From Xanthobacter sp. NM-59 (GTDB taxonomy: Bacteria > Pseudomonadota > Alphaproteobacteria > Rhizobiales > Xanthobacteraceae): DNA of 64,000 nucleotides. The DNA is taken from contig NZ_JACBFQ010000007.1 of the NCBI RefSeq assembly GCF_021401125.1, positions 1 through 64,000 on the forward strand. The letters are read 5' to 3'. Positions within the stretch are counted from its first letter, which is position 1, and each line of letters opens with the position of its first letter. The notes under the pieces were generated by a model. The model did not search any database. It saw nothing but the letters and a program-made list of their open reading frames with translations, and had not been told where the DNA came from. Both the position numbers and the translations under genes were made by a program. Shown in pieces: positions 10,618-48,785 of this stretch.

Positions 10618-10719
10618 GACACTGAGTCTCCCCGTGGGATGCTCGATCTTAGGCGCGAGCGATGACACGAGCACGCCCATCCTGGGGCGGCAAGGAGGCG
10701 AGCGACAGAGCCCGAGCTC

Positions 10720-27558: not shown

Positions 27559-29391
27559 TCACAGCCGGGCGGGCGCCTCCGCCGGTCCGGCCAGGGCGGC
27601 GCGATCCGCCTCGGTGAGCGCAGCCGCGCCGGCCGGTCGCAGGAGCAGCAGGGCTTCCCCCTCCACCTCCCGCATCGGCCGGTGATGGGCCCAGCCGAAC
27701 ACGTCCACGACGAGGTCGGGGGCCTGCTCGCCAAACCAAGCCAGCGCCTCCGCCGGGCCGATCTGCTGAATGATGCGCGGGCTGGGAGCCCGCTGGCCCA
27801 GCAGCAGCAACCGCGCCCCGCGACGCGCCCGCGCCGCGAGCGCGGCCAGGGCCGCGGCCGGGTCATGCACCGCCTGAAGGTCAATCGGCTCGAAAGTCAC
27901 CCGTGTGCCCAGACGCCGGGAGAATCCGTGCGCCGCCAGCATCCTCCGCGCGATGCCAGCAAGCCCCAGCACCGGCGCCCCCCGGCAGTGACGGCGCAAG
28001 GCGCGCGCGCCGAAGCGCTGTTCCAGAACCTGATGGTCGGCGCTTGAAAGCGCCCGCAGCGCTGCCGCCATGCCGCCATTGCGCGCGAGTTCCACTTCCA
28101 GCGCGGCCCCCGCCTTCGCCAGCCGGCGGATGGGCGCCCCATACCAGGGCAGGCGCGGCGCGGGGGGCTGGGCGGAGGCCTCCTCCACCCGCCGGCACAG
28201 GCTCTCCCCATCATCCTGGCGCACCAGCCCCTGCTCGAGAACGTGGCCCACCAGGGCGGCGACCCGGCCCGACTCAGGCGCCGCCGGCGGCCCCGCACCA
28301 AGGACCGCCCCGAGGTCCGCGCCGTCCTCGATGTCAATGGTGAGGCCCTTGCGCCCGTAATAGGGCTCTCCCCAGGCGATGACGGGACGCCCCGCCATCA
28401 GCGCCTCCATGCCCACATTGGAAGAGTGCAGCCCCACGACATCGCAGAGCGCAAACAGATCGTGGATGGAGACATTGCGCACCAGGCGCACATGCTCCGG
28501 CAACCCTTCCGCCCGGCTGGGATCGGGCCCGCGGGGATGCGCCTTGAAGATGACGCGCCACCCCTCGGGCAGGCTGCGGAAGACCGCCCGGTAGATACTC
28601 GCCAGGTCCGGGTAGTTCCGCAGGCTCACGGTGATGCTGGCATCGAACGCCACCTGGCCCGGCACGAACAGAACCGGCCCCGGCCGCTGTGCCAGCCACG
28701 CCTTCAGCCCTTCGAGCTCGCCGCTGTCGGTGGACTGCTGATATTTGGAGCCGCGCTCGGCACGGATGCGGGCAATGAAGCCCACCGCGCGCACCGCCGC
28801 CCCCCCCTCATCGAGGCCCTCGCCCCTCTGCCAGGTGCGGTCGATGCGATGGGCGCCGCGAAAAAAGTGCGGCGCATAGGGATCCACGAAGTGGTAGCCG
28901 GGAAAAAAGGGGCTTTCCCAATACAGATAGCGGATGCCGAGATGGCTGCTCGCGGCCGCCAGAAGGCGTGAGAGGACCTCGGCCCCATGGGGCACGAACA
29001 CCACCTCCGGCGCCAGCTTTTCCATCACCGCGAGCGCTTCGCCCGTCACCCCGCGCAATTGCTGGCTCCAGACCGATTCGGTCAGCAGGCTGTCGATGCG
29101 CGCGTCGTCGATGGTGAGGCTGTGGGCCGACAGGTCGATGAGATCCGGACGGAAGCCATGACGGGCCTGGAAGGCGAAGGCGGACAGACGCGGCGCGGCA
29201 TCGAAGCCGCCCTGCAGCAGCACCGGCCCCTCGGGATCGCAGGCCGCATGCGCCTCGTCAGACCAGAAGGGGACGATCTGCGGCTCGAAGCCGCCGGCGC
29301 GCGCGGTCCGCGCCAGCAAGGCGGCATTGGTGGCCGATTCCTCCCCCACCATGCGGAAGATCACCGCCCGTCGCGCCCGACCACCCACCAT
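27559..29391 (-). CDS. Capsule polysaccharide biosynthesis protein (KpsC/PF05159-like) with extra C-terminal domain
   Basis: About 610 residues from ATG 29391. The central part (about 90-390) matches the KpsC/KpsS-type capsule family: YLYWESPFFPGYHFVDPYAP, VLFVPGQVAFDASI, WRVIFKAHPRGPDPS, DVVGLHSSNVGMEALMAGRP and WGEPYYGRKGLTIDIED. In E. coli such proteins are beta-Kdo transferases building the lipid linker of group 2 capsules; RkpJ of Sinorhizobium is a relative by memory. The C-terminal ~180 residues contain GAPVLGLAGIARRMLAAHGF and a hydrophobic strand pattern I cannot assign. The gene is divergent from the pyruvyl transferase and borders the polysaccharide/lipid locus. Enzymatic role is inferred. 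Confidence 0.82.
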   Translation of the reverse strand: MVGGRARRAVIFRMVGEESATNAALLARTARAGGFEPQIVPFWSDEAHAACDPEGPVLLQGGFDAAPRLSAFAFQARHGFRPDLIDLSAHSLTIDDARIDSLLTESVWSQQLRGVTGEALAVMEKLAPEVVFVPHGAEVLSRLLAAASSHLGIRYLYWESPFFPGYHFVDPYAPHFFRGAHRIDRTWQRGEGLDEGGAAVRAVGFIARIRAERGSKYQQSTDSGELEGLKAWLAQRPGPVLFVPGQVAFDASITVSLRNYPDLASIYRAVFRSLPEGWRVIFKAHPRGPDPSRAEGLPEHVRLVRNVSIHDLFALCDVVGLHSSNVGMEALMAGRPVIAWGEPYYGRKGLTIDIEDGADLGAVLGAGPPAAPESGRVAALVGHVLEQGLVRQDDGESLCRRVEEASAQPPAPRLPWYGAPIRRLAKAGAALEVELARNGGMAAALRALSSADHQVLEQRFGARALRRHCRGAPVLGLAGIARRMLAAHGFSRRLGTRVTFEPIDLQAVHDPAAALAALAARARRGARLLLLGQRAPSPRIIQQIGPAEALAWFGEQAPDLVVDVFGWAHHRPMREVEGEALLLLRPAGAAALTEADRAALAGPAEAPARL

Positions 29392-29650
29392 CACCCATCC
29401 ACCTGCCTCTGCTGCGAAAGGGTATAGACCGCTTTCGCCCGCTCCACACCCGCCCGAGAAAGGAACCCATCCGCCTTGGCAGGGCTTCGTGAGATGCCAC
29501 AGCCGCACGCCCTACGTGAATCAGCGGTATAACTCGCGCGTTTCGAGGGTGCCGAGGCGATCAAATCCGGGTATCAACCGCTCGGGAAACCGAAACCAAA
29601 CCCGCCCGCCGGATCCGGCACGCCACAAACGGAACCGAATTGGGATGCAC

Positions 29651-32766: not shown

Positions 32767-35700
32767 ATGACGAACCGCATCAGCCGTGCCCAGACGCCGA
32801 TGCCCGAGATTGGACAGAACCACGCCGCCGCAATTCTGGGCTATGCCTGCCGGTTGCCGGGGGCTGCTAACGTGGACGCTTTCTGGTCCGTGCTGTCGCA
32901 GGGGCGTTGCGCCATCACCGAGATCAGCTCCGAGCGGTGGGCCAAGGAGCGCTTCCTGCATCCGCGCTCCGGAGAGCCGGGCCGCACCTATACCTTCGCC
33001 GCCGGCGTGCTCGACGACATCTACGATTTCGACCCCGGCGCCTTCGGCCTCTCCCCGCGTGAGGTGGAGCAGGTCGACCCCCAGCAGCGCATCCTGCTCG
33101 AGCTCACCCGCGAGGCGTTCGAGAACGCGAACCTTCCCCTGTCCGAGCTGGAAGGCAGCTCGGTGGGCGTGTTCGTGGGCGCCTCGTCCCTCGATTATTC
33201 GGTACGGTTCGCGGCGGACGTGTGCTCCATTGATCCGCATTTCGTCACCGGCAACGCGCTTTCCATCATTTCGAACCGCATTTCGTTCGCGTTTGGCTTC
33301 ACCGGCCCCAGCCTGACCATCGACACCGCCTGCTCATCTTCCCTGGTGGCGTTCGACCGTGCGGTGCGCGCCATTGAAAGCGGCGAAGTCGAAGTGGCGG
33401 TGGTGGCGGGCGTGAACATTCTCGCTGCGCCGTATAACTTCGTCGGCTTCGCGCGCGCGGGCATGCTCTCGCCCACCGGCCGCTGCCGCCCCTTCTCCGC
33501 CCAGGCCGATGGCTATGTGCGCTCCGAGGGCGCCGTGGTGATGGTGCTGCGCCGCCTGGATGCGACGCGCGGCACGCTTCAGCCGCCGCGCGCGGTGGTG
33601 CTCGGCACCGGCACCAATTCCGATGGCCGCACGGTCGGCATCGCGCTGCCCAACACCAGCGCCCAGCAAGCCCTCATCGAGAATGTCTACGCCGCGCGGG
33701 GCATCGATCCGGAGGCCCTGGCCTTCATCGAGGCCCACGGCACCGGCACGCGGGTGGGTGATCCGGCAGAGGCGAACGCCATCGGCAATGCCATCGGTCG
33801 CCGGCGCTCGGCGCCGCTGCCCATCGGCTCGGTCAAGTCCAACCTCGGCCATCTGGAGCCCGCGTCCGGGCTCGCTGGCCTTTTGAAATCGCTGCTGGCG
33901 CTGCAACACAAGCTGCTGCCGGCGTCGCTGCATCTCGATGAGCTCAATGAGAGCATCCCGTTCGACGAACTGAACCTCGCGCCCGCGCGCACCCCCGTGG
34001 CCCTTGAAGAGGGACGCGAGGCGGCGGCGGTGTCTTCGTTCGGCTTCGGTGGAACCAACGCCCATGCGGTCGTGCGCCTGCCGCACTCGGACGAATGGGA
34101 AGCCCCCGCCAGCCCGGCCGAGAGCGCGCGACCTGCTGCCCTCGCCATCTCGGCTTCCAGCCGCAAGGCCCTGGCCGATCTCGCCGCCGACTACGCCGCC
34201 GCCATCGAGGCCGGCGCGGATCCGGCGATGCTGGCCAATGGGGCGGCCCATGGCCGTTCGCAGCTCGCTCATCGCCTGGCGCTGCCGCTCGACGGCATTC
34301 TCAAGCCGGCGGACGCCCTGCGCCGCTTCGCCGCCGATCAGCCGGAGCCCGGCCTCGTCTCCGGCGTCTCGGACCGGCCCCAGCGCATTGCCTTCGTGTT
34401 CGCGGGCAATGGCGGGCAATATGTGGGCATGGGGCGCACCGCCCAGCTGGCGAGCCCGGCCTTCCGCGACTCTATCGCGCGTATCGACGCCTTTTTCGTG
34501 CCCCACGCCGGCTGGTCCATCGCCGAGGCGCTCGAGGCCCCGGCTGACCTGGAGCGGATCGCGGCAACCGAGATCGCCCAGCCCATGCTGTTCGCCATCG
34601 GCGTCGGTCTTGCCGAGAGCCTGATGGCCGCAGGGTGCCAGCCCTCCGCCGTGCTCGGCCACAGCGTGGGCGAAATCCCGGCCGCCTATATCAGCGGCGC
34701 GCTCGACCTGAAGGAAGCGGTGGAGGTCATCTACTGGCGTTCCAAGCTGCAGGAGCCCGCCCGCGGCACCGGCGGCATGGCCGTGCTCATGGCTTCCAAG
34801 GACGACGCAGCCGCCCTCATCGGCCCGCCGGAAGCGTCCGGCGTGGTCATCGCCGCCGTCAACAGCCCGAGCGTGGCCACCATCGCCGGCCCCCATGCCG
34901 AGCTTGATGCCCTGCTGAAGCGCGCCCGCAAGAGCGGCGTCGCCGGCAAGCGCATGGACCTGGACTATCCCTTCCATTCGCCGCTGATGGCGCCGGTGGA
35001 AGGCCCCCTGCGCGAGGCCCTTGGTGGGCTGCACCCGCGCGCAAGCCACATTCCCTTCTTCTCCACCGTCACCGGCCGCCTGTTCGACACCACCCGCCTC
35101 GACGGCGAATACTGGTGGCACAATGTGCGTGAACCGGTGCTGTTCGCCGATGCGGTGCTCGGCGCCGCCGAGGTCGAGAAGATCGACATTTTCCTGGAAA
35201 TGGGCCCGCGGCCGGTGCTCACCGGCCACATGCGCGAGACGCTGGAACCGCTGCCGGGAAGCCATGTGGTGCTTGGTTCCCTGCAGGAAAAGGCGCCGGC
35301 CCATCGCGACCCGGTGTTGCAGACCCTGCTGTCGTGCTTCGTCGAGGGCGCGCCGGTGGCGCGCGAGCGCCTGTTCGGTGCGCGGCGCCCGCTGGGCGAG
35401 GTCAAGCTGCCGCTGACGCCGTGGCAGCGCCAGACCATTGTGGTGCCCGAGAGCGTGGAAGCGGCGGACGTGGGCGGCACCCATCGCCTGCATCCCCTGC
35501 TCGGCGCCCGCCTGCGCCAGGATTCCCAGGAATGGCATGGCCTCCTGGATCCCCAGCTGGTGCCGTATCTCGCCGACCACAAGGTGAACGACACGGTGGT
35601 GGTGCCCGGCACCGCCTTGGCCGAGATGGCGCTGGCCGCCGGCCGCGAGATCCATGGCGATGTGCCGCTGGCCCTGGAGGAATTCGACATCCTCCACGCC

Positions 35701-38700
35701 CTCACCCTGGGCGAGGAAGGCGGGCGCGAGAGCCTGGTGCGCGTCGCCCCCACCGGCCTTGTGGAAATCCTGAGCCGGCCGCGCCTTACCACGGACTGGA
35801 CCCTTCACGCCCGCGGCCACCTGGCGCCGTCGTCCTCCACGCCGGCCGACCGCGCGCCGGTGGACCAGGATGCGAGCGCCCCGGCCCTGCCCGTCACCGC
35901 CAGCGATCTCTACGCGGCCGCGGAGCGCATGGGCCTGCAATATGGCCCGCAGTTCCGGCTCGTGACGGAAGCGGTTCGCCGTGGCCGCCGCATCGACCTG
36001 GAACTGAAGCCCGAAAACGCCGACCAGGGCGCGTTTGGCCTTTCCCACGTGCTGCACCCCACCGTTCTGGATGCGTGCCTGCACGGCCTGCTGCTGGCGG
36101 TTGACCCGGCGGCGCTGGAGGATGGGCGCGTCTATCTGCCGGCCCGCTTCGGTGCGCTACATGTTTTCGCCGCCTCTTCGGTGGCGCGGGCCGAGCTGGC
36201 GGTGGTGCGCGCCAGCGCCCGCTCGCTGCTGCTCGACATCCGCCTCCTGGATGCCGAAGGCCATGTTGTGGCGCGGCTCGACGGTGCGCGCCTGCGGGCG
36301 GCGACCCTCTCCAACACCGCGGCGACCGAGACCGACTATCGCCAGCATCTGGAAGCCCTGCCTGCCTCCGTGGCGGATATTTCTGTCGTGGAGCAGGTGG
36401 AAGCCGCCTTCAGCGGTCTCGACGACAGCGTGGATGCCGGCGACGCCCATGTGCTGCTGAACGCGTTCGCCACCGCTTTGGCCCATGAGGCGGTTTCCGG
36501 CCTGCTGAAGGGCGATGTCGCCGCCCTCAGCTCCGTGAATCCGGACGATCTGGTGGAGCGGGGCATTCTCGCCGATGCGGCGCGCCCGACCCTGCTCGCG
36601 CTGCTGTCCATCCTCGCCGCCGGTGCCCTCGCCGCCCGCGAGGGGCAGGTGTGGACGGTGATCGCCGACAGCGGCCTTCCGGACAGCGCCAGCATCCTGG
36701 CCGAGGTGTTGCGGGATGCGCCCGAGCGCGCTGCGGAAGTCACCATCGGTTCCTATCTGGCCGCGGCGCTGCCGGCCCATCTGGCGACCGGCGAGCTCCT
36801 GCGCATCACCGGCGCGCTGCTGGACCACTGGGAGGCTTCCGCGCCGCCCGCGCGGGCCCTGCAGGAGGTCGCCCGCGCCCTGGTGGAAGGCGGGCGCAAG
36901 TCCGCTCCGGCCCGTGTCCTGGTGGTGGAGCGCCACGGCGCCGTGGCCCTGGCGCTGCTGCCGCTCGCACAGGCGGGCCACATCCGCCTCGCGGTGGATG
37001 GCAGCGAGCCCTCCGTGCGCGAGACCCTCGCCGCGCGCCATCCGGCCCTTGCCCCCCTGCTCGCCCCGGCCGCCGATGGCGAGGTCAGCACCTATGACGT
37101 GGTGCTGGCCGCCGACCCCCACCCGCTGGTGCTGGAAACCGAGCCCCTGGCCGCGCGCCTTGCCAAGCGGGTCAGCGGCGGCGGCGTGCTGGCCGTGCTG
37201 CAGCTTGAAAGCCATCCCTTCGCCGCGCTGATCGACGCGGTTGGAGCGGAAGAGGACAGCCCCGCCCGCCACCGTCCCATGGCGGAAACGGCCCAGCGCC
37301 TGGCCACGGCCGGCTTCCTGGGCGTGAAGACCCGCCGGGCCGTTCTCGCCGACGCCGTGGTGGACGTGCTTGTGGCCCGCGCCCCCCTGCCCGAGGCGGA
37401 CGGCGCCCCGCAGGCCGAAGCTGCACTGGCCGAGGCCATCAGCCTGGAATTTGCCCACAGCACCGCGCCCGCCAGCCTGGTTGCGGCAATCGATGCGGCG
37501 GGTCACCTGAGTGCCCTGCGCCGGCTGGAAAGCGGCACCGCGCCCGGAGCCGACCTGCCATTGGCCGACGGCGAGGGGCGCAGCCTCGTCCTGCATCCGC
37601 TCATGCCGACCACGGCCGAGCCGGCCGCACTCGCCGGCCTGTTCACCCATGCCACCGCCCTTCTGGAGGCGGTGCGCGCCCATCCGGGCAAGGCCGAAGT
37701 GTGGTTCCTCACCCGCGGCAATGCGCCGGTGAATGGCAGCCCACTGGCCAGCGCCTGCTGGGGCTACGGCCGCGTTGCGGTCAACGAGTTCGCGGATATC
37801 GACCTGCGTCTCGTGGATGTGGCGCCGAGCCTCGACGCCGACACCGCCGCCGGGCGCCTCGCCGCGCTGCTGCTGGCTGCGCCGGAAGAGCGGGAACTGG
37901 TGATCGGCGATGGCCCGGTTTCGGCCGTGCGCACCACCACCGGCGCCGCGGCGCGCGAGCAGGTGGCGCCCGATGGCGAGCCGACCACCACCATGGCCCG
38001 CCTGGAGGCGAAGCCCGGCTCCATGGACCGGCTGACCTGGGTGGGCGCCCCGCGCCCCGCCCTTGCCGCCGATGCCGTGGAAATCGAAGTGGCCGCGAGC
38101 GCCCTCAATTTCCGCGACGTGATGTTCGCCCAGGGCGTGATCGGCGACGAGATGCTGGAGAACGGCTTTACCGGCCCCTCCCTCGGCTTCGAATGCTCCG
38201 GCGTCGTGACCCGGATCGGTACCGCGGTCTCAAGCGTGAAGGTGGGCGACCGCGTCATGGCGTTCGCCCCCGCGGCCTTCGCCTCCCACGTGGTGGTCTC
38301 GGCCAACATGGCCATGCCGGTGCCCGACAATGTGCCTCTGAAGGCGGCCGCCACCATTCCGGTGGCCTTCCTCACCGCGTGGTACGGCCTTGTCACCCAG
38401 GCCCGGCTGAAGCGCGGTGAGTGGGTGCTGGTGCACGGCGCGGCCGGCGGCGTGGGCCTGGCGGCCCTGCAGATCGCCAAGTGGCTCGGCGCGCGCATCG
38501 TCGCCACCGCCGGCACGCCAGAGAAGCGCGCCTTGGCGGCTCTCGCGGGGGCCGACCTGGTGCTCGATTCCCGCTCCCTGGCCTTCGTGGACGACATCCG
38601 CTCCGCCATTGGCGGGGTGGACGTGGTGCTCAACTCCCTGGCGGGCGAGGCCATGGAGCGTTCCATCAAGGTGCTGAAGCCCTTCGGCCGCTTCGTGGAG

Positions 38701-40254
38701 CTGGGCAAGCGCGACTATATCGGCAACACCGAAATCGGCCTGCGCCCGTTCGCCCGTAACCTGTCCTATTTCGGTGTCGATACCGACCAGCTCATCGCCG
38801 CCCGGCCGGACGCGCTGCAGGAGCTGTTCGGCGATCTGGTGCGGCTTCTGGCGGAGGGCGAGTTCACGCCCCTGCCCTATCGCGAGTTCGCCGCCGACAG
38901 CGCGCCGGAGGCGTTCCGCCTCATGCAGGGCGCCGGCCATGTGGGCAAGATCCTGCTCACCCCGCCCGTGACGCCTCCTCCCGTGGCCGAGACGCCGGCC
39001 CCGTTCCGGGCCGCCGCGGAAGGCGTGCACCTGGTGGTGGGCGGCACCGGCGGCTTCGGCTTCGAAACCGCCATATGGCTCGCGGACCATGGGGCGAACG
39101 CCATCGTGGTGGCTTCGCGCAGCGGTGCCCTGACGCCGGAGGCGGCCGCCCGCGCCGCCGCCCTCTCCGCCCGTGGCGTGACGCTGACCGCCGAGCGCCT
39201 GGACGTGCGCGACGCCGAGGGCGTGAAGCGCTTCGTCGATGGGCTGGTTGAGCGCTATGGGCGCCTCAGCGGCGTGGTGCACGCGGCCATGGTGCTGGAT
39301 GATGGCCTGCTGCGGGACCTCACTGCCGAGCGCTTCGAGAAGGTGCTGGCCCCCAAGATTGAGGGCGCGGCCCATCTGGATGCCGCCACGCGGAACCTCG
39401 CCGTCGCGCCCGATTATTTCGTGATGTTCTCCTCGGCCACCACGCTGGTGGGCAATCCGGGGCAAGGCAATTACGTGGCCGCCAATGCCTTCCTTGAGGG
39501 CCTGGCCCGCGACCGCCGCGCCGCCGGCCTCCCGGCGCTCGCCGTGTCGTGGGGTGCCATCTCGGACGTGGGCGTGCTGGCGCGCGAGACCGCCATCAAC
39601 GAAAAGCTGAAGCGCCGCATCGGCCGCCACGCCATGGCGTCGGCCACCGCGCTGAAGCATCTCGGCGCCTTCCTTTCGGAGGGCGACGCCATCCACCCGC
39701 CGGCCGTGACCTGCGCCTATATCGACTGGTCGACCGCCGGCGAGCTGGCCCTGGTGAAGGCGCAGACCTTCGCCGCCCTGCTCACCGACGGGCGCAGCGA
39801 GCGTACGCTGGGCAAGAGCTCCGACCTCGAAAGCCTCATCGCGGGGCAGAACGAGTCCGAGGCGCGCCTCACCATCGCCCGCCTGCTGGCTGAGGAGATC
39901 GGCAAGATCCTGCGCCTGCCAGTGGAGGCGGTGGACCTGACGCGTCCGCTCATGGACATCGGCATGGATTCGCTGATGAGCCTGGAACTCGACATGGAAG
40001 TGCAGCGCCGGTTTGGCGTGGAACTGCCGGTGCTGGCGCTGGGCGCCGGCTCCACCCTCATGGACGTGGCTGAAAAGGTGCTCCAGCAGGTGCGCGGCAG
40101 CGGCGATGCCGGGACCGCCACGCCCGAACAGCTGATCGCCGAGGCCGGCATCATGGACAAGCACGTGGATCTCGATCTCGACAAGGACGCCATCGCGCGG
40201 CTCAGCGCCAAGGTGATCAGCGAGAGCGAGCACACGGGCGGAGGCATAATGTGA
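32767..40254 (+). CDS. rkpA: Type I polyketide/fatty-acid synthase, RkpA/WcbR-like (KS-AT-DH-[degenerate MT]-ER-KR-ACP)
   Basis: 2495 residues, with AGAGGGG before ATG 32767. Domains: KS about 18-440 (Cys189 in DTACSSSL, His324, His362); AT about 540-840 (Ser633 in GHSVGE; YPFH at 734-737 suggests malonyl); DH about 915-1190 (His938, Asp1102); 1220-1740 a degenerate methyltransferase-like and structural KR region; ER about 1750-2060 (HGAAGGVG at 1890-1897); KR about 2085-2330 (GGTGGFG, Ser2223, Tyr2236, Asn2240); ACP about 2365-2440 (Ser2402 in GMDSL). No thioesterase. All reductive domains look active, so a saturated chain is expected, made iteratively. Size and order match, from memory, RkpA of Sinorhizobium K-antigen synthesis and WcbR of the Burkholderia capsule. 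Confidence 0.9.
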   Translation: MTNRISRAQTPMPEIGQNHAAAILGYACRLPGAANVDAFWSVLSQGRCAITEISSERWAKERFLHPRSGEPGRTYTFAAGVLDDIYDFDPGAFGLSPREVEQVDPQQRILLELTREAFENANLPLSELEGSSVGVFVGASSLDYSVRFAADVCSIDPHFVTGNALSIISNRISFAFGFTGPSLTIDTACSSSLVAFDRAVRAIESGEVEVAVVAGVNILAAPYNFVGFARAGMLSPTGRCRPFSAQADGYVRSEGAVVMVLRRLDATRGTLQPPRAVVLGTGTNSDGRTVGIALPNTSAQQALIENVYAARGIDPEALAFIEAHGTGTRVGDPAEANAIGNAIGRRRSAPLPIGSVKSNLGHLEPASGLAGLLKSLLALQHKLLPASLHLDELNESIPFDELNLAPARTPVALEEGREAAAVSSFGFGGTNAHAVVRLPHSDEWEAPASPAESARPAALAISASSRKALADLAADYAAAIEAGADPAMLANGAAHGRSQLAHRLALPLDGILKPADALRRFAADQPEPGLVSGVSDRPQRIAFVFAGNGGQYVGMGRTAQLASPAFRDSIARIDAFFVPHAGWSIAEALEAPADLERIAATEIAQPMLFAIGVGLAESLMAAGCQPSAVLGHSVGEIPAAYISGALDLKEAVEVIYWRSKLQEPARGTGGMAVLMASKDDAAALIGPPEASGVVIAAVNSPSVATIAGPHAELDALLKRARKSGVAGKRMDLDYPFHSPLMAPVEGPLREALGGLHPRASHIPFFSTVTGRLFDTTRLDGEYWWHNVREPVLFADAVLGAAEVEKIDIFLEMGPRPVLTGHMRETLEPLPGSHVVLGSLQEKAPAHRDPVLQTLLSCFVEGAPVARERLFGARRPLGEVKLPLTPWQRQTIVVPESVEAADVGGTHRLHPLLGARLRQDSQEWHGLLDPQLVPYLADHKVNDTVVVPGTALAEMALAAGREIHGDVPLALEEFDILHALTLGEEGGRESLVRVAPTGLVEILSRPRLTTDWTLHARGHLAPSSSTPADRAPVDQDASAPALPVTASDLYAAAERMGLQYGPQFRLVTEAVRRGRRIDLELKPENADQGAFGLSHVLHPTVLDACLHGLLLAVDPAALEDGRVYLPARFGALHVFAASSVARAELAVVRASARSLLLDIRLLDAEGHVVARLDGARLRAATLSNTAATETDYRQHLEALPASVADISVVEQVEAAFSGLDDSVDAGDAHVLLNAFATALAHEAVSGLLKGDVAALSSVNPDDLVERGILADAARPTLLALLSILAAGALAAREGQVWTVIADSGLPDSASILAEVLRDAPERAAEVTIGSYLAAALPAHLATGELLRITGALLDHWEASAPPARALQEVARALVEGGRKSAPARVLVVERHGAVALALLPLAQAGHIRLAVDGSEPSVRETLAARHPALAPLLAPAADGEVSTYDVVLAADPHPLVLETEPLAARLAKRVSGGGVLAVLQLESHPFAALIDAVGAEEDSPARHRPMAETAQRLATAGFLGVKTRRAVLADAVVDVLVARAPLPEADGAPQAEAALAEAISLEFAHSTAPASLVAAIDAAGHLSALRRLESGTAPGADLPLADGEGRSLVLHPLMPTTAEPAALAGLFTHATALLEAVRAHPGKAEVWFLTRGNAPVNGSPLASACWGYGRVAVNEFADIDLRLVDVAPSLDADTAAGRLAALLLAAPEERELVIGDGPVSAVRTTTGAAAREQVAPDGEPTTTMARLEAKPGSMDRLTWVGAPRPALAADAVEIEVAASALNFRDVMFAQGVIGDEMLENGFTGPSLGFECSGVVTRIGTAVSSVKVGDRVMAFAPAAFASHVVVSANMAMPVPDNVPLKAAATIPVAFLTAWYGLVTQARLKRGEWVLVHGAAGGVGLAALQIAKWLGARIVATAGTPEKRALAALAGADLVLDSRSLAFVDDIRSAIGGVDVVLNSLAGEAMERSIKVLKPFGRFVELGKRDYIGNTEIGLRPFARNLSYFGVDTDQLIAARPDALQELFGDLVRLLAEGEFTPLPYREFAADSAPEAFRLMQGAGHVGKILLTPPVTPPPVAETPAPFRAAAEGVHLVVGGTGGFGFETAIWLADHGANAIVVASRSGALTPEAAARAAALSARGVTLTAERLDVRDAEGVKRFVDGLVERYGRLSGVVHAAMVLDDGLLRDLTAERFEKVLAPKIEGAAHLDAATRNLAVAPDYFVMFSSATTLVGNPGQGNYVAANAFLEGLARDRRAAGLPALAVSWGAISDVGVLARETAINEKLKRRIGRHAMASATALKHLGAFLSEGDAIHPPAVTCAYIDWSTAGELALVKAQTFAALLTDGRSERTLGKSSDLESLIAGQNESEARLTIARLLAEEIGKILRLPVEAVDLTRPLMDIGMDSLMSLELDMEVQRRFGVELPVLALGAGSTLMDVAEKVLQQVRGSGDAGTATPEQLIAEAGIMDKHVDLDLDKDAIARLSAKVISESEHTGGGIM

Positions 40255-41639
40255 GCGCCAACAACACCCAGGGTCGCCTTTCGGCCGACGCCAAGGCCGC
40301 GCTTTTGAACCGCATGCGCAGCACCACGCCCGGGGGCGCCGCCCCCGTGGCCGCCGCCGCCACGCCCCATTACGACACCTCGTTCGCGACCCTTCCGGGT
40401 TTCGAACAGCTGAAGCTCATGCACGCGGCCACGAACGCCTTCGGCATTCCGAACCCGTTCTTCCGCACCCATGACGTGCGCGCCGGCGCCACCTCCGTCA
40501 TCGGCGGCAAGGAGGTGATCAACTTCGCCTCTTACGACTATCTCGGCCTGAACGGCGCGCCGGAGGTGATGGCCGCCGCCCATGGCGCCGTGGATGCCTA
40601 TGGCACCAGCGTTTCGGCCAGCCGCATCGTGGCCGGCGAGCGCGCCTTCCACCGCGATTTCGAGCGCGAGCTCGCCGCCGTCTACGGCACCGACGACGCC
40701 ATTGTCTATGTGAGCGGCCATGCCGCCAATGTCGCCACCATCGGCACGCTGGTGGGCCCGCGCGACGTGGTGTTTCACGACGAGCTGATGCACAACAGCG
40801 CCATCGTCGGCACCCAGCTCTCGCGCGCCCATCGCCGCTGGTTCGCCCACAACGATCTCGACGCACTGGAGGCCATGCTGGCCGCCGACCGCGCCAGCTA
40901 TGGCCGCGCGCTGATCGTGGTGGAGGGCAACTATTCCATGGACGGGGACGCCCCCGACCTCGCCCGCCTCGTGGACCTCAAGCAGCGCTATGGCGCCTGG
41001 CTGATGGTGGACGAGGCCCACAGCCTCGGCGTCCTGGGCACGCGTGGCCTCGGCATTTTCGAGGCCCAGGGCATCGACCCCAGGTCGGTCGACATCTGGA
41101 TGGGCACCTTGTCCAAGACCCTGGCGAGCTGCGGCGGCTATATCGCCGGCTCCAAGGACTTGGTGGATTATCTGAAGCTGTCGGCGCCCGGCTTCGTCTA
41201 TTCGGTGGGCCTGTCCGCGCCGGCGACCCTTTCGGCCCTGACCGCCCTGCGGCTGATGCTGCAGGAGCCGGAGCGGGTGGCGCGCCTGCAGGCCAACAGC
41301 GCCCGCTTCCTCGCCGCCGCCAAGGCCGCCGGGCTCGATACCGGGGCAGCGGACGGCCATGCCATTCTGCCCGTCATCGTGGGCGACTCCCTCAAGGCGG
41401 TGGTGTTGTCGAACCTGATGCTTGATCGGGGCGTGAACGTGCTGCCCATCATCCATCCGGCGGTGCCCAACAAGGCGGCCCGGCTGCGCTTCTTCGTGAC
41501 GGCCGCGCACACGCCCGAGCAGATCGACGCGACGGTGAACATCCTCAAGGAAGAGCTGCCGAAAACCGACGCCTTCATCCGCAAGCTCGCCTTCGCGGGC
41601 ATCTCGGACATGCTGGAAGGCGGCGCCGGACAAGGCTGA
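40251..41639 (+). CDS. rkpG: PLP-dependent alpha-oxoamine synthase (AONS/serine-palmitoyltransferase family), RkpG/WcbT-like
   Basis: 462 residues from GTG 40251, overlapping the rkpA stop as GTGA, so translation is coupled. The class II aminotransferase-fold motifs are complete: NFASYDYLGLNG, DELMHNSAIVG (PLP-stacking His), DEAHSLGVLGTRG (Asp254, His257) and the Schiff-base lysine Lys289 in TLSKTLASCGG. Family members condense an acyl thioester with an amino acid, losing CO2 (biotin, heme and sphingoid-base synthesis). An N-terminal extension of about 60 residues starts with a basic helix (SADAKAALLNRMRS). Coupling to an ACP-bearing synthase without thioesterase suggests it releases the finished chain as a 2-amino-3-keto lipid. 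RkpG homologues have been called acyltransferases; this chemistry is my inference. Confidence 0.88.
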   Translation: MSANNTQGRLSADAKAALLNRMRSTTPGGAAPVAAAATPHYDTSFATLPGFEQLKLMHAATNAFGIPNPFFRTHDVRAGATSVIGGKEVINFASYDYLGLNGAPEVMAAAHGAVDAYGTSVSASRIVAGERAFHRDFERELAAVYGTDDAIVYVSGHAANVATIGTLVGPRDVVFHDELMHNSAIVGTQLSRAHRRWFAHNDLDALEAMLAADRASYGRALIVVEGNYSMDGDAPDLARLVDLKQRYGAWLMVDEAHSLGVLGTRGLGIFEAQGIDPRSVDIWMGTLSKTLASCGGYIAGSKDLVDYLKLSAPGFVYSVGLSAPATLSALTALRLMLQEPERVARLQANSARFLAAAKAAGLDTGAADGHAILPVIVGDSLKAVVLSNLMLDRGVNVLPIIHPAVPNKAARLRFFVTAAHTPEQIDATVNILKEELPKTDAFIRKLAFAGISDMLEGGAGQG

Positions 41640-41699: not shown

Positions 41700-42998
41700 A
41701 TGACGATCCTGATGGACATCACGCGCATCTTCCGGCGCGCGCCGCAGCTCACGCCCACGGGCATCGACCGGGTGGAGCTCGCCTACGCCCTCCATCTGCT
41801 GAAGCGGGATGATGTGCGCTACATCGTGCGCTACCGCCAGCGTGTCTGGCCGCTGCGCCGGCAGCCGGTGCCGCGCTTCCTGTCGGCGCTCGAGGCCCGC
41901 TGGAACGGGGCCAAGATCGCCGCCGCCCGTTCAGGCGAGACCGAGCGCCTGGAAACGTTCCTCGCGCTGCCGGCGGGCACCCTGGCCGAACCGCACGCCT
42001 CCGGAACGACGGCGCCGGTGGCAGACATCTGGCCGCTCTATGCCAGCCTGTTTTCCCCGGGCGATGGGCTGACCGGCGCGCTGGCCCGGCCGGTGGGCCG
42101 TGGTGCCATCTATCTCAATGTCTCCCATGAGGGGCTGACCTTCCCGGGCGACATGGAGCGGCTGGTGCGCGAACTCGGCTGGAAGCCGGTCTACCTGATC
42201 CACGACCTTATTCCGCTGACCCACCCGGAATATGTGCGCGAGGGCGACGAGGCCAAGCACGACTTGCGCATGACGCAGGTTCTGAACACGGCCGCCGCCA
42301 TCATCTACAATTCCGCCCACACCGAGCAGACCATGCGCGACTTCGCCGCGCGCAAGGGCTTGGCGATGCCACCGGGCATTGTGAGCCTGCTCGGGATCGA
42401 GGAAAAGTTCCAGCGGCTCCACCCGCCCGCCGTGGCCGGGGCGACAGCGACGGCGCCCCCCTATTTCGTCGCCGTGAGCACTATCGAGCCGCGCAAGAAC
42501 CACCTGCTGCTGCTGCATCTGTGGCGCCGGCTCGCCGAGCTGCGGGGGCAAGCCACGCCCAAGCTGGTGCTGGTGGGCCGGCGTGGGTGGGAAAACGAGA
42601 ACATCGTCGATCTGCTGGATCGGGCCAGCGGGCTGAAGCCCCATGTGTTCGAATGCAACCGCCTCGCCGATGAACAATTGACGCGGCTGCTGCGGGGCGC
42701 GCGGGCGATGCTCTTTCCCTCCTTCGCGGAGGGCTATGGCCTGCCGCTGGCGGAAGCCCTGGCCCTGGGCGTGCCCGTCATCGCCTCGGAGCTGGAGGTC
42801 TTCCACGAGATCGCGGGCGACATCCCCTGCTACCGGGACGCCATTGACGGGCTGGGCTGGAGCGCGGCCATCGAGGACTTCTGCCGCCCGGACTCCGCGC
42901 TGCGCCAAGGCCAGATGGCCGCGCTGAAGGACTTCCGCGTGCCCACCTGGCCCCTCCACTTCGCCAAGGCGGATGAGCTGCTCGACAGCCTCACCTGA
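41700..42998 (+). CDS. Glycosyltransferase family 4 protein
   Basis: 432 residues from ATG 41700, 60 bases after rkpG. It begins TILMDITRIFRRAPQLTPTG IDRVE (split for quoting), a start I associate with capsule-cluster GT4 enzymes. It contains YLIHDLIPLTHPEYVREGDE, FVAVSTIEPRKNHLLLLHLW and the EX7E motif FPSFAEGYGLPLAEALALG. It is about 40 residues shorter in its linkers than the 30838 enzyme and diverged, so probably adds a different sugar. Likely in the same transcript as rkpA-rkpG and a candidate for glycosylating the lipid. Confidence 0.9.
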   Translation: MTILMDITRIFRRAPQLTPTGIDRVELAYALHLLKRDDVRYIVRYRQRVWPLRRQPVPRFLSALEARWNGAKIAAARSGETERLETFLALPAGTLAEPHASGTTAPVADIWPLYASLFSPGDGLTGALARPVGRGAIYLNVSHEGLTFPGDMERLVRELGWKPVYLIHDLIPLTHPEYVREGDEAKHDLRMTQVLNTAAAIIYNSAHTEQTMRDFAARKGLAMPPGIVSLLGIEEKFQRLHPPAVAGATATAPPYFVAVSTIEPRKNHLLLLHLWRRLAELRGQATPKLVLVGRRGWENENIVDLLDRASGLKPHVFECNRLADEQLTRLLRGARAMLFPSFAEGYGLPLAEALALGVPVIASELEVFHEIAGDIPCYRDAIDGLGWSAAIEDFCRPDSALRQGQMAALKDFRVPTWPLHFAKADELLDSLT

Positions 42999-43043: not shown

Positions 43044-43132
43044 GGTTCATGGAAACAGAGAAACCGTCTATCCCTTTGTTTCTACGGCATCTCTCCGCGC
43101 ATACCGGTTCCCGTCCGCTCTGAAGCACCCTA
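43044..43132 (-). repeat. Dispersed palindromic intergenic repeat, copy C (inverted)
   Basis: Read on the minus strand it has GCTTCAGAGCGG, GGAACCGG, then GAAACAAAGGGATAGACGG and TTTCCATGAA, the same blocks as copy B. The first palindrome is degraded in this copy. It lies between two convergent genes. Confidence 0.65.
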
Positions 43133-44665
43133 TGCCCGCCCCAGCATGCGGCGCAAAATGGCGTTGAGGCCTTCGGGCGCGCAATCGCCGGCCACCGCGC
43201 CGGCCGCCTGCCCCCTGACGCCGCCCACGACGTGGCGGCCGCACTCGATCACGATGTAATCGGTGCGGGGATCGTCTGCGAGCATGTCGAAGCCTGGCAA
43301 GAGCGGCGCGTGATCACCGTAGAAAACCAGCAGCGAGCGTTCGGTGGCGGCGTCCAGCCCCTCCACCATGCTCGCCAGGAGTTCGTCGGCATGGGCGGCG
43401 TGCCGGCAATATTGCTCCAGCGGATCGTCGGTCTCCGAGAGGCGGCCGGCGCCGTAGGGGTCGTGCGCCTCCATGGTGACCGCCATCATATAGATGGAGT
43501 GCCCCCGCTCCCGCGCGGCAGCGATCTCCGCCCGCAGACGCCGGCCCACGGCAGCGTCGGACACGTAGGGCCCGAAACGCTCCATGCCGGAAAAGTCCGC
43601 CTCGGTCAGGAAGCGCTGAAAGCCCAGCTCGGGCACCGCCCGCGCACGGCGAAAGAAATGCGGGTCATAGGGATGGACGAACACCGTCTCCCAGCCCTCC
43701 GCCTGAAGCTCCCCCGGCAAGGCATGGCCGGTGAAGCGGCGGGCGCGCAGATAGGGGTGGAACCGGTCCACCCCCTGGGCCGCGAAAGCGAGGCCCGTGG
43801 ACACCGCGAACTCGGGCCGCAGCGTATAGGCCCCATAACAAGGCACCACCAGCCGCCCATGGGCCAGCGCCCGCTCCCGCAGGGCGTCGAAGGCCGGCAG
43901 CTCAAGGCCGACGCCCTGGCGCCGCAGGTCGTAGAAGGACTCGGACTGGATCACCACCACCGCGTCATAGACGCCGGGGGCAGCAGCCGTCCCGGCATCG
44001 GGCGGTGGTGAGGCGGCGGCGCGCTCGGGCCGCGGGGCTGGCGCGGGCACGGCGCGCAGCGCCACCGCCGACACAAGGATGGACGGCACCAGGCCGAGGC
44101 GGGTGACGAAAACCCGCGCCGATTCGCGGCTCACCAGCTCCAACGCCTGCGGCCAGGGGGCCAGCACAAGGCGCGGCGTGGCGAAGGCCAGGCCGAAAAG
44201 CAGCAGCAGCAGCCCCAGCGCGACGCCCTGCCCCGCCCAGCTCAGGGTGCGCGGCTCCAGGATCATCCAGCCGATGATAAGGCCCACGAGCCCGGCAATG
44301 ACGGCGAGCATGCCCAGCGTCTTGCGCCAGCCCAGATAGAACAGGTCGGGATGCCGCACGAGATGGGTGATGAAGGCGAAGTCCGTGACCACGAACGGCT
44401 CTTTCAGATACCGCGCCTTCTCCCCCGAAATCACGAGGAACACCGCCGTGGTGATGATGGAGGCCGTGGCCGCGAACGCCGCGCGTGCCGAAAGCGCCAG
44501 CCAGAACAGGAACAGCACCGCGAAGGCCGCCAGCCGCAGTGCCAGGAAGCGGCCCGCCGCCCCCGCCCGCTTCGGCGCGGGCGCGAACACGCGCTCCATC
44601 AGGTCGCACACCAGCACGGCGAGCACCCCGGCCGCGAGGCCAGCCGTTACTGTGGAATGGATCAT
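43130..44665 (-). CDS. LTA synthase-like sulfatase-fold membrane phosphotransferase
   Basis: 511 residues from MIHSTVTAGLAAGVLAVLV; a longer upstream frame is low-complexity and has no ribosome site. Five hydrophobic helices cover about residues 1-200. The catalytic domain has VVVIQSESFYDLR (metal ligand Glu), CYGAYTLRPEFAVSTGLAF with the expected Thr nucleophile, and LLVFYGDHAPLLPGFD (metal ligands Asp-His). This matches the LTA synthase/OpgB (MdoB) family, which transfers phosphoglycerol or related groups from phospholipids to glycans or lipids on the periplasmic side. Convergent with the GT4 gene and divergent from the GT2 gene, it sits inside the lipid/polysaccharide locus, hinting that the product carries a phospho-substituent. 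Confidence 0.87.
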   Translation of the reverse strand: MIHSTVTAGLAAGVLAVLVCDLMERVFAPAPKRAGAAGRFLALRLAAFAVLFLFWLALSARAAFAATASIITTAVFLVISGEKARYLKEPFVVTDFAFITHLVRHPDLFYLGWRKTLGMLAVIAGLVGLIIGWMILEPRTLSWAGQGVALGLLLLLFGLAFATPRLVLAPWPQALELVSRESARVFVTRLGLVPSILVSAVALRAVPAPAPRPERAAASPPPDAGTAAAPGVYDAVVVIQSESFYDLRRQGVGLELPAFDALRERALAHGRLVVPCYGAYTLRPEFAVSTGLAFAAQGVDRFHPYLRARRFTGHALPGELQAEGWETVFVHPYDPHFFRRARAVPELGFQRFLTEADFSGMERFGPYVSDAAVGRRLRAEIAAARERGHSIYMMAVTMEAHDPYGAGRLSETDDPLEQYCRHAAHADELLASMVEGLDAATERSLLVFYGDHAPLLPGFDMLADDPRTDYIVIECGRHVVGGVRGQAAGAVAGDCAPEGLNAILRRMLGRA

Positions 44666-45203: not shown

Positions 45204-46397
45204 TTGGTCGTTCTGCTCGTCATCGTGGTGGCGCTGAGCCTTGCCTTCAGCGTCGCGTCGCTCGCCTCGGCGGCCCGCAAGCTGCTGTGGATGCACCTGC
45301 CCAACGAGCAGGCGACAGCGCGCGTCAGCGTCATCCTGCCGCTCACCGGCGCGGCGCCCCATCTGCGCGAGATGATCGAGCTGCTGGCCGGCCAGACCCT
45401 CAAGCCGCGCCGCCTGATCGTGACCGTGGAGGCGGAAGAGGACCCCGCTTTCGCCGCCACCCGCGCCGTGGCGGAAGAGGCCCCCTTTCCCATTCAGATC
45501 GTAGTGGCCGGCCCGGCCACCGAGCAGGCGCAGAAATGCCACAACCAGCAGGCGGCCCTCGCCCTCATCGACAGCGAGGATGAGATCATCGTCCTCATGG
45601 ATGGCGACATCCGGCCCCATTCCAACTGGCTGTCGGGCCTGGTGGCGCCCATCCTCCACGAGGGTTTCGACCTGGTGACGGGGCATCGCTGGCAGCAGGT
45701 GATGGCGCCGCGCCTGGGCGCCCATCTGGTGGCGGCGGTGGACCGGGCGGTGACGCTCACCCCCCGCCTCGACCGCGACAGCACCCGCGTGGTGTGGGGC
45801 GGCAGCATGGCCATTTCCCGCGACGCCGCGGCCCGCATGGATCTTGCGGGCAGCCTCGACCACACCTTGTCCGACGACCTCTCCATCTCCATCCAGGCGG
45901 CCGAGCGCGGGCTCAGGGTGGTGACGCGCGGTGCGCTCTACATCGCCTCGCCCTCGGACCTGCGCTTGGTCCCGGCCTGGCGCTTCGCGCGGCGCCAATA
46001 CCAGATCTGCAACATCTACCGGCCGTGGCTGTGGCGCCTGGCGCTCGCGGTCATCGGCCTGCGGCTCGCGGCCTTCGCGGTGGCGGCGGCGGCCGTCGCC
46101 ACCGGGTCGTCCTGGGCTGGCTGGGGCCTGGGTGCGCTCCTCGCGCTCTCGCTGCTCGGCCTAGTAAAGCAGTATCTGGTGGGCGTGGTGGCGGCGCGGG
46201 TGGGGCTGCCGGACCCTGCGTCGGTTCGCCTCGGTCAGCTTCTCCTCGGGATCGTGCAACCTGTGGCGGACCTGTTCCACTTCAGCGTCATTTTCGGCGC
46301 GGCCTGGACCGGCACCGTAAAGTGGGGGCATGTGACCTATGATGTCCGGGGGCCTGACCGCATCCGGGTGAAAGGGAGACGGCCATTCTCACATTGA
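45204..46397 (+). CDS. Glycosyltransferase family 2/21-like (ceramide glucosyltransferase-like)
   Basis: 397 residues if started at TTG 45204; no ATG or GTG is in frame after the stop at 45159, and the N-terminal helix seems cut, so ATT 45171 after GGGAG is an alternative. An N-terminal helix (VVLLVIVVALSLAFSVASL) is followed by a GT-A domain with RVSVILPLTGAAPHLREMIE, CHNQQAALA, IIVLMDGDIRPHSNWL (metal-binding Asp), LVTGHRWQQV, VVWGGSMAIS and LSDDLSISIQAAERG (catalytic Asp). RRQYQICNIYRPWLW corresponds to the (Q/R)XXRW region. C-terminal helices follow. The pattern resembles GT21 ceramide glucosyltransferases and HpnI, enzymes glycosylating membrane lipids on the cytoplasmic face. Confidence 0.82.
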   Translation: MVVLLVIVVALSLAFSVASLASAARKLLWMHLPNEQATARVSVILPLTGAAPHLREMIELLAGQTLKPRRLIVTVEAEEDPAFAATRAVAEEAPFPIQIVVAGPATEQAQKCHNQQAALALIDSEDEIIVLMDGDIRPHSNWLSGLVAPILHEGFDLVTGHRWQQVMAPRLGAHLVAAVDRAVTLTPRLDRDSTRVVWGGSMAISRDAAARMDLAGSLDHTLSDDLSISIQAAERGLRVVTRGALYIASPSDLRLVPAWRFARRQYQICNIYRPWLWRLALAVIGLRLAAFAVAAAAVATGSSWAGWGLGALLALSLLGLVKQYLVGVVAARVGLPDPASVRLGQLLLGIVQPVADLFHFSVIFGAAWTGTVKWGHVTYDVRGPDRIRVKGRRPFSH

Positions 46398-47786: not shown

Positions 47787-48785
47787 GTGTCCGATACCTC
47801 CACGACCACCAAGACCAAGGCCCCCAAGAAGAAGATTAATCCGGAGCTGGCCGGGGCGCTGCCCTGCCCCATTACCGGAGCTCCCCCGGTGCGGCGCATC
47901 CAGACCATGTCGAAGGCGCTGCTTCAGGACATCTGGCGGCTTGGACAGGGCGTGGACGTGAGCCATCTGTTCAAGGACATCAAGAGCTTCAGCCTCTACG
48001 AATCGCCCACCGGGCTCGTCTATTTCGACCCCATGGTGGTCGGCGACGGGGAGTTCTACGGCACCTATTACGACAAGTGGGAGGTGCATGACGCACTCAC
48101 CTACCTGTCCGACACGCGCGTGGACTTCATGCATACGGCCAAGCATGTGCCGGCCGGCGCCAAGGTGATCGACATTGGCTGCGGGCCCGGCGTGTTCCGC
48201 CGCCATGTGCCCCACGCCACCTATGTGGGCCTCGACCCCTATGCGGGACCGGACGTGGACGACGTCGTCATCCGCGAGACTCTGGAGGAGCACGCGGAGA
48301 AGAATCCCGGCGCCTATGACGTGGCCACCTGCTTTCACGTCATCGAGCACGTGCCGAACCCGCGCCGCCATGCGGAGCTGATGGCGAAGCTGGTGAAGCC
48401 GGGCGGCCTAGTGGTGCTGGCGGCGCCGCTCTTCCCCTCGCCGCTCACCGAGATCCCCAACCTGCCCATCAACATGCCGCCCCACCATGTGACCTGGTGG
48501 AACGCGCGCGCCTTCACCGCGCTGGCGGAGAATCTGGGGCTCGAGGTGGTGGAGGCCAATGCCACGCCGCCCTCGCCGCACCAGAACATGTTTTTCTGGA
48601 TGCACAAGCTCTTGTTCCGCCGCACCTATCATTCGCCGGACGAGCGCTATTTCGCCCATCGCTGGTCGTGGCACGCCAGCATCGCCCTGGCCTATCTCGG
48701 TGCGCGGGTGGTGAGCCGGTTCCGCTCCATGCCCGCCACGGCGCGGCCGGTGGACGCCTATCTGGTGGCTCGCAAGCCGGCCTGA
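47787..48785 (+). CDS. SAM-dependent class I methyltransferase
   Basis: 332 residues from GTG 47787, seven bases after the P450 stop, with GGAG at 47772-47775. A Lys-rich N-terminus (STTTKTKAPKKKINPE) and a CPITGAP segment precede the Rossmann domain: motif I KVIDIGCGPGVFRRHVP, YVGLDPYAG, the motif-IV region DVATCFHVIEHVPNPRRH and PGGLVVLAAPLFPSP. The C-terminal quarter contains WSWHASIALAYLGARVVSRF, a possible membrane-associated segment. The substrate is unknown. A sugar, a P450-made hydroxyl or the lipid head group are candidates by context. Confidence 0.87.
   Translation: MSDTSTTTKTKAPKKKINPELAGALPCPITGAPPVRRIQTMSKALLQDIWRLGQGVDVSHLFKDIKSFSLYESPTGLVYFDPMVVGDGEFYGTYYDKWEVHDALTYLSDTRVDFMHTAKHVPAGAKVIDIGCGPGVFRRHVPHATYVGLDPYAGPDVDDVVIRETLEEHAEKNPGAYDVATCFHVIEHVPNPRRHAELMAKLVKPGGLVVLAAPLFPSPLTEIPNLPINMPPHHVTWWNARAFTALAENLGLEVVEANATPPSPHQNMFFWMHKLLFRRTYHSPDERYFAHRWSWHASIALAYLGARVVSRFRSMPATARPVDAYLVARKPA

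Follow-up and report, generated by a model that had tools for sequence, protein, structure and literature searches.

Which lipid is made by a single-module polyketide synthase (PKS) when the gene of an alpha-oxoamine synthase (AONS) starts within its last codons, and what does the cell use it for? The question is raised by a stretch of 64,000 nucleotides of Xanthobacter sp. NM-59 (assembly GCF_021401125.1, contig NZ_JACBFQ010000007.1, positions 1 to 64,000 of the forward strand; hereafter the window), in which such a pair, of the RkpA/SgaA and RkpG/SgaB types, is found between positions 32767 and 41639. A preliminary description of this DNA had read the pair as the source of a saturated 2-amino-3-keto lipid, a sphingoid-base analogue serving as capsule or glycolipid anchor. 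The pathway idea is not new, its chemistry having been in print since 2025 (PMC12134224); new here is the gene company, i.e., the coupling of the pair to RkpI (a phosphoglycerol transferase-like membrane protein), to RkpH (a short-chain dehydrogenase/reductase, SDR) and to transferases of 3-deoxy-D-manno-oct-2-ulosonic acid (Kdo). Through this coupling the capsule locus and the sphinganine pathway of 2025 become parts of one hypothesis about the lipid at the capsule end: RkpA, RkpG and RkpH would make a sphinganine, RkpI would supply it with glycerophosphate, and the Kdo linker and capsule would stand on it. Taken as a whole, this explanation is considered the probable one, by a modest measure.

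The synthase and oxoamine synthase pair

The PKS gene (32767..40254, + strand, ATG start, 2495 aa) showed the Pfam order ketoacyl-synt, Acyl_transf_1, PKS_DH_N/PS-DH, ADH_N/ADH_zinc_N (ER), KR and PP-binding, i.e., KS-AT-DH-ER-KR-ACP. Motifs in the translation: KS – DTACSSS, EAHGTGT and NLGHLEP; AT – GHSVGE and YPFH, which we take, by the usual rule, to be of the malonyl type; DH – His in ADHKVNDTVVVPG, the usual G of HxxxGxxxxP being replaced, and Asp in DACLH; ER – GAAGGVG; KR – GGTGGFG and YVAAN; ACP – GMDSL. All six domains are present and their active sites are intact; neither a thioesterase nor a methyltransferase domain was among the 14 Pfam families listed. Pfam and motifs thereby agree with the earlier picture of a one-module, fully reducing synthase of six intact domains and no thioesterase.

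The AONS gene (40251..41639, + strand, GTG start, 462 aa, Pfam Aminotran_1_2) does start within the last PKS codons, as had been noticed; according to the coordinates of the two frames, its GTG shares letters with the TGA stop of the PKS (GTGA). Residues K289, H181, D254, H257 and R413 are retained, being invariant in an alignment of 42 sequences and aligned with the serine palmitoyltransferase (SPT) 3a2b; K289 is the lysine that binds pyridoxal phosphate, and the other four are catalytic. The protein is 53% identical to the homologue of Pseudomonas sp. TMW 2.1634 and 50% identical to that of Sinorhizobium meliloti; the PKS is 37% and 43% identical, in two stretches, to the PKS of the Pseudomonas plasmid cluster. 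In NCBIfam the AONS stood nearest to bioF, KBL and the serine palmitoyltransferases, all under the curated cut-offs, and its assignment as a canonical SPT was rejected as these cut-offs were unmet. Three more AONS-family proteins, 37–38% identical to that of the window, are encoded in the genome.

All AONS matches besides the window were collected from two even genome samples chosen without regard to PKS (35 loci, 34 genomes). A PKS was present at 35/35; its frame ended within 1 kb of the AONS frame at 31 loci, the frames overlapped by 1.1–1.3 kb at three and were fused at one. The pairing is therefore not due to chance. One-chain proteins of the order KS-AT-DH-ER-KR-ACP-AONS were found at L167 (9385-17250, − strand; a Pseudomonadota genome, 71% complete) and on plasmid p3 of Planktothrix agardhii (L192, 3566-11164, + strand), and a plasmid of Streptomyces anthocyanicus (L195, 6311-11134, + strand) encodes a chain of 1607 aa that matches both the PKS and the AONS profile; these fusions suggest that the PKS is unloaded directly by the AONS. 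At one locus (L183, 10759-16956, − strand) Pfam found no ER in the PKS beside an RkpG-type AONS (46% identity to a Halomonas query), and the product there is accordingly expected to be unsaturated or otherwise functionalised.

The expected product

In Pseudomonas fluorescens MYb115 the PKS SgaA and the oxoamine synthase SgaB were reported in 2025 to make C24, C26 and C28 sphinganines, the evidence being knock-outs, isotope labelling and an SPT assay with serine (PMC12134224). SgaB used serine, was almost inactive with alanine and glycine, and gave 3-ketosphinganines in vitro; the SDR SgaC of the cluster was proposed to reduce the ketone, and 6,101 homologous clusters, mostly of Burkholderia, were counted (PMC12134224). 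The window pair is like SgaAB in architecture, a single-module iterative PKS adjoining an AONS.

By this analogy RkpA and RkpG very probably make a sphingoid base. RkpA would join malonyl units on its ACP domain into a long, saturated acyl chain, which RkpG would release by condensing it, with decarboxylation, with an amino acid, probably serine; the result would be 3-keto-sphinganine, as shown for SgaA/SgaB. The ketone would then be reduced by an RkpH-type SDR encoded beside KpsS on another contig. The sphingoid part of the preliminary description thus finds its parallel in the related SgaAB pair, for which it was shown; its 2-amino-3-ketone is likely to be an intermediate, and the end product is probably a sphinganine, reduced at the ketone and bearing phosphoglycerol as its head.

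The RkpI-type protein

One gene beyond the pair, past a glycosyltransferase of the GT4 family, lies a gene for an RkpI-type membrane protein of the lipoteichoic acid (LTA) synthase/phosphoglycerol transferase group (43130..44665, − strand; PF00884, by Pfam and PDB profile). Its open frame extends to 44944, conservation begins near codon 94, and the genome-level match covered 43103-44668; no NCBIfam family was given for it. This minus-strand gene was not mentioned in the preliminary description. A profile of 22 RkpI sequences matched eight distinct PDB sequences at E ≤ 0.001: the phosphoglycerol transferase GacH (two; 7.6e-35), an LTA primase (8e-20), four LTA synthase sequences (4e-11 to 4e-6) and one uncharacterised protein. 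A sulfatase, as the Pfam name would have it, was rejected, seven of the matches being of phosphoglycerol/LTA type and the eighth the uncharacterised protein. The residues invariant in the 22 sequences include E335, T374, H424, D544 and H545 (GDH motif); after LtaS and GacH, T374 is taken to be the nucleophile, and E335, D544 and H545 to be metal ligands. Hydropathy indicated five membrane segments ahead of the catalytic domain. LtaS has the same layout, with the catalytic domain outside the cell; that of RkpI likewise looks periplasmic, and transfer of glycerophosphate is predicted for it. That RkpI is the headgroup enzyme of the sphingoid lipid appears fairly probable.

Genome-level coupling

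A total of 398 Pseudomonadota genomes was searched with AONS, RkpI, RkpH and PF05159, the family of the Kdo transferases; at E ≤ 1e-100, 19 genomes including that of the window counted as AONS-positive and 379 as AONS-negative. RkpI was found in 12/19 AONS-positive vs 0/379 AONS-negative genomes at E ≤ 1e-100 (p 2e-18), in 13/19 vs 9/379 at 200 bits or more, and in 13/19 vs 18/379 at E ≤ 1e-40 (p 5e-12), where the genomes are related and the p-values, overstating independence, are only a guide and weaken the case to that extent. RkpH (E ≤ 1e-80) was found in 14/19 vs 12/379, and PF05159 (E ≤ 1e-15) in 15/19 vs 48/379. All 12 genomes with strong RkpI also have AONS, RkpH and PF05159. Among the 63 PF05159-positive genomes, RkpI (at least 200 bits) was present in 12/15 with AONS vs 3/48 without it; RkpI is therefore no general capsule gene and mostly follows the sphingoid pair. 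RkpI and AONS together go with Kdo transferases, and in four genomes (G095, G151, G185 and G271) RkpI and the SDR stand on a contig apart from the AONS, beside PF05159 genes.

The genome of the window holds homologues of PKS, AONS, SDR, RkpI and KpsS, in just two linked groups, RkpA-G-(GT4)-I and KpsS-RkpH. No RkpH-type or KDSR-like SDR was found in the window by profile. On another contig (C11, L092) a KpsS (8698-10194) and an RkpH-type SDR (10047-10973) adjoin; the SDR scored 307 bits with the locus profile and 338 bits (4.2e-101) in the genome-level search, and is 44% identical to the SDR of the Pseudomonas plasmid. Its putative identity as the ketosphinganine reductase KDSR is drawn from gene context and from the published statement on SgaC. 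The KpsS of C11 passed the PF05159 cut-off of 20 with 261 bits; the cut-off of 600 of the NCBIfam KpsS family NF050054 was not reached by this protein (239.7 bits), nor by that of the Pseudomonas plasmid (270.8 bits). Another PF05159 protein, on contig C13 (L093), gave 190 bits with the KpsC profile and is named a BFO_1060-type glycosyltransferase domain in NCBIfam.

Gene neighbourhoods of relatives

The best 80 of at least 519 relatives of the window AONS were taken as a second set of loci, and their neighbour genes were clustered. Locus profiles were built from this set, with thresholds set by eye at score gaps, and its counts are accordingly in-sample: PKS 77, RkpH-type SDR 46, RkpI 24, KpsS 25, KpsC 13 and export protein 29. 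The 35-locus set gave PKS 35, SDR 17, RkpI 9, KpsS 11, KpsC 11 and export protein 4. Many loci end at contig ends; 49/80 and 26/35 reach at least 19 kb. As controls, 20 regions of 20 kb were scanned, three around the other AONS-family genes of the window genome and 17 from nine AONS-holding genomes; 0/20 contained a gene over any profile threshold. Compared with these, the 26 sample loci of at least 19 kb are enriched in SDR (14/26, p 4e-5), RkpI (8/26, p 0.006), KpsS and KpsC (7/26 and p 0.012 each).

Gene orders were as follows. Rhizobium loci: export protein, PKS, AONS, SDR, PF00884 protein, KpsS-type PF05159 protein, an arrangement that agrees with rkpA and rkpGHIJ; H, I and J are names given here by position in it. 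Halomonas-type loci: SDR, PF00884 protein, PKS, AONS. Six of 14 matching plasmid records were covered, and four of them, annotated independently, agree with this picture and gave extended orders. Pseudomonas: PKS, AONS, PhyH, capsular protein, GNAT, LTA synthase family protein, SDR, capsular protein (KpsS type), capsular protein (KpsC type, 630 bits), phosphotransferase, KpsF, kdsB, the set from PKS to kdsB spanning at most 25 kb. S. meliloti: export, PKS, AONS, SDR, RkpI (LTA-synthase-like; an open frame of 486 bits, absent from the PLSDB table), KpsS, KpsF. Paraburkholderia: KpsS, SDR, LTA synthase, PKS, LpxC-like deacetylase, AONS, GNAT. Caballeronia: SDR, LTA synthase, PKS, LpxC-like deacetylase, AONS, export genes, with no KpsS within the stretch covered. 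The other two, the fusions of Planktothrix and Streptomyces, were without the pathway's other genes. The LpxC-like deacetylase between PKS and AONS was located at L193 10893-11807 (PF03331 scanned; Paraburkholderia) and L194 10904-11830 (Caballeronia). In the Pseudomonas plasmid (RS26445-RS26415) and in MYb115 (RS19805-RS19775) PKS and SDR are 30 locus-tag units apart; the sga genes of MYb115 themselves were looked for and not found, and the equal spacing, which is the sole link, suggests the same layout in MYb115.

A proposed sphingoid capsule anchor

A sponge study of 2013 described wcbR/rkpA clusters as holding genes of capsular polysaccharide biosynthesis and export (PMC3908369). ABC-exported capsules are described as built on phosphatidylglycerol, to which KpsS attaches one Kdo and KpsC the Kdo residues that follow (PMC12220298, PMC11041684). 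A stated chemical role of the capsule genes rkpA, rkpG, rkpH and rkpI was not found in the literature searched, and no printed link between the rkp/wcb capsule set and sphingolipids was found in open-literature titles and abstract openings.

In the proposed continuation of the pathway, RkpI would take sn-glycerol phosphate off phosphatidylglycerol and pass it on to the sphinganine; the resulting phosphoglycerol-sphingolipid would be the one whose mass appeared in P. fluorescens. It would then replace, or be exchanged for, phosphatidylglycerol under the poly-Kdo linker made by KpsS/KpsC, and one sphingoid anchor of very long chain length would finally carry the capsule. Phosphoglycerol-sphinganine and phosphatidylglycerol share the glycerol head, and most simply the former would stand in for the latter as acceptor. 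The Kdo linker (KpsS) is cytosolic while RkpI looks periplasmic, and an exchange following export is on that account no less likely: Kdo and capsule would first be assembled on phosphatidylglycerol, and once they are outside, RkpI would transfer the whole glycerophospho-capsule from diacylglycerol to sphinganine. The chemistry would be the same as that by which LtaS moves glycerophosphate, and the phosphoglycerol-sphingolipid of P. fluorescens would come from the same reaction on plain phosphatidylglycerol. Both forms predict a sphingoid at the capsule end.

That the sphingoid lipid is the capsule anchor, in bacteria with the complete gene set, is held with slightly better than even confidence. 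The anchor part of the preliminary description is supported at the level of gene context, by the coupling to RkpI, SDR and PF05159 Kdo transferases in neighbourhoods and across genomes. As for the broader claim of a second class of Gram-negative capsule anchor, a very-long-chain phosphoglycerol sphingoid under capsules of the rkp, wcb and sga types, in its boldest form put in place by RkpI as an anchor exchange, the chances appear evenly balanced. If the capsule does end in a sphingoid lipid, sphingolipids would be capsule components also in bacteria not counted among the sphingolipid producers, ABC-exported capsules would differ in their lipid end, and a new substrate could be assigned to a phosphoglycerol transferase.

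Relation to known systems

The genes rkpA/rkpGHIJ of the Sinorhizobium K antigen and wcbR/wcbT of Burkholderia are capsule genes. The S. meliloti AONS has the identity to that of the window given above; the neighbourhoods differ in that the window pair is flanked by GT4, an HpnI-like glycosyltransferase, a P450 and a methyltransferase, with SDR and KpsS on the other contig. SgaAB(C) of MYb115, with an SDR in the cluster and phosphoglycerol sphingolipids inferred from mass, was described as a secondary-metabolite pathway with no reference to a capsule. The canonical bacterial SPT pathway (Caulobacter, Sphingomonas) shares the chemistry, serine and an acyl thioester giving 3-ketosphinganine; unlike the window pair, it depends on a free-standing ACP together with an acyl-CoA synthetase (PMC9386255). 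As to the poly-Kdo-phosphatidylglycerol terminus of KpsS/KpsC, PF05159 proteins also occur in the window genome and in 15/19 AONS-positive genomes, whereas the acceptor or final anchor proposed here is phosphoglycerol-sphingoid and not phosphatidylglycerol.

In fungi, PKS chains are released by oxoamine synthases in the pathways of fumonisin (FUM1/FUM8) and sphingofungin (SphA). The fumonisin-type PKS has a methyltransferase domain, and the products are secreted toxins not tied to Kdo or capsule genes. The fumonisin parallel drawn in the preliminary description holds for the oxoamine synthase beside the PKS; it fails in that Pfam found no methyltransferase domain in the window PKS. The P450 is a possible accessory. 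A fumonisin-like toxin pathway with P450 was rejected as the defining reading, given the missing methyltransferase domain and P450 relatives near only 4/80 loci.

Alternative explanations

Several observations weigh against a sphingoid anchor. Three of them, the genomes without PF05159, the loci without capsule profiles and the published account of SgaAB, also speak for the alternative that the products of the pair are free lipids of sphinganine type, either secondary metabolites or membrane components, the capsule standing on ordinary phosphatidylglycerol and the envelope genes merely clustering. In the window genome RkpH and KpsS lie on a contig other than that of the pair. PF05159 at E ≤ 1e-15 is absent from 4/19 AONS-positive genomes (G012, G041, G169 and G322), strong RkpH is missing in 5/19 and strong RkpI in 7/19; of the 26 sample loci of at least 19 kb, with their 14 SDR and eight RkpI, ten have any capsule gene and 16 are without any of the six capsule profiles. 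About three to six candidates were scored per genome, and the alignments of RkpI and RkpH were built from AONS-adjacent genes, so that the strictest cut-offs favour such genes. Strong RkpH-type SDRs (E ≤ 1e-80) are found in 12 AONS-negative genomes (G355, G191, G016, G187, G139, G063, G280, G361, G357, G394, G247 and G163), and the SDR may thus serve another pathway too; the name KDSR was not found for it among the best 25 of 152–205 families or the best 60 of 544 PDB sequences. The words "capsul" and "rkp" are absent from the main text of PMC12134224, where the SgaAB products are described as secondary metabolites acting on the nematode host, with no capsule named, and where lipids of +154 Da are called "most likely" phosphoglycerol sphingolipids, the headgroup being assigned by mass only. 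The periplasmic look of RkpI, set against the cytosolic Kdo linker, moreover calls for a flip or an anchor exchange. Against a free lipid stands the genome-wide coupling with RkpI, RkpH and PF05159, which persists on separate contigs in the four genomes named above, and the lack of RkpI (at least 200 bits) in 45/48 PF05159-positive, AONS-negative genomes; this alternative is regarded as doubtful, to be kept in sight nonetheless.

A sphingoid anchor could also exist with RkpI decorating the polysaccharide with glycerol phosphate, the headgroup coming from, e.g., a CDP-alcohol phosphotransferase. GacH, the best PDB match of RkpI, decorates a cell-wall carbohydrate. A CDP-alcohol phosphotransferase (PF01066) was found at 7/80 loci (L018, L024, L037, L043, L055, L086 and L087; PF01066 scanned in L018, the rest by clustering), and RkpI at 0/7 of these vs 24/73 others (p 0.07), which is suggestive only of an alternative headgroup enzyme replacing RkpI. 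In three AONS-negative genomes RkpI stands beside KpsS within Kdo-capsule loci (L280 9006-11842, L281 9799-12788 and L282 7000-11197, all without RkpG-type AONS), so that its tie to the sphingoid is not a strict one, and six further genomes have RkpI (at least 200 bits) with neither AONS nor PF05159. As RkpI tracks AONS and not capsules in general, and as a phosphoglycerol sphingolipid of the right mass was reported in a strain with a related pair (PMC12134224), a purely decorating RkpI is held to be unlikely. The use of alanine, glycine or another amino acid by RkpG, giving a 1-deoxysphingoid or other amino-ketone, is a still weaker candidate. The window AONS reached none of the NCBIfam cut-offs for SPT (NF047603 219.6/670, NF047599 288.1/500 and NF047600 296.2/640 bits), that of NF047603 being reached by no protein of the window genome nor by the control genomes; its profile matched an SPT of the PDB best (3.8e-99, 335.7 bits) and an AONS/KBL enzyme next (3.6e-95, 322.6 bits), and with scores so close the sequence leaves the amino acid substrate undecided. 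In favour of serine, SgaB is near-exclusive for it vs alanine and glycine (PMC12134224), and a phosphoglycerol head requires a hydroxyl such as that of serine. That RkpG is a simple O- or N-acyltransferase acting without decarboxylation, as the tradition of annotation alone has it, is highly improbable, the catalytic residues of alpha-oxoamine synthases being kept in RkpG and the homologue SgaB yielding 3-ketosphinganines in vitro (PMC12134224). The preferred reading remains a capsule whose lipid end is a sphinganine carrying phosphoglycerol.

Accessory and neighbouring genes

GT4-family glycosyltransferase (41700..42998, + strand, Pfam), an accessory: its profile was above threshold at 11/80 loci of the best relatives and at 1/35 sample loci. 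HpnI/GT21-like glycosyltransferase (45204..46397, + strand, Pfam and NCBIfam) and methyltransferase (47787..48785, + strand, Pfam), both possible accessories: each has a single relative among the 80 loci, at L018 (29% and 39% identity, respectively), where the relatives (2367-3320 and 6082-7269; Methylocella record) lie near the PKS/AONS pair. Cytochrome P450 (46394..47779, + strand, Pfam), a further possible accessory, sits between these two genes in the window; with relatives of 27–30% identity near only 4/80 loci it is no conserved part of the pathway. An LpxL-type acyltransferase (PF03279) stands beside a P450 near the AONS of L025 (12101-14489, − strand), and both clusters also occur in L055 and L086.

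Directly after the accessory block come rmlB and rmlD (dTDP-rhamnose; 48867-50815), the rmlD frame overlapping rmlB, and a ferredoxin reductase-like gene follows the block at 50948-51724. On the other side of the pair, the protein of 27559..29508 (− strand) gave a weak match to PF05159 (Kdo-transferase type; 42 bits, E 1.1e-10) and stayed under the threshold of the KpsC profile, and no BLAST relatives of it were found among the 80 loci at E 1e-10; its link to the pathway is uncertain.

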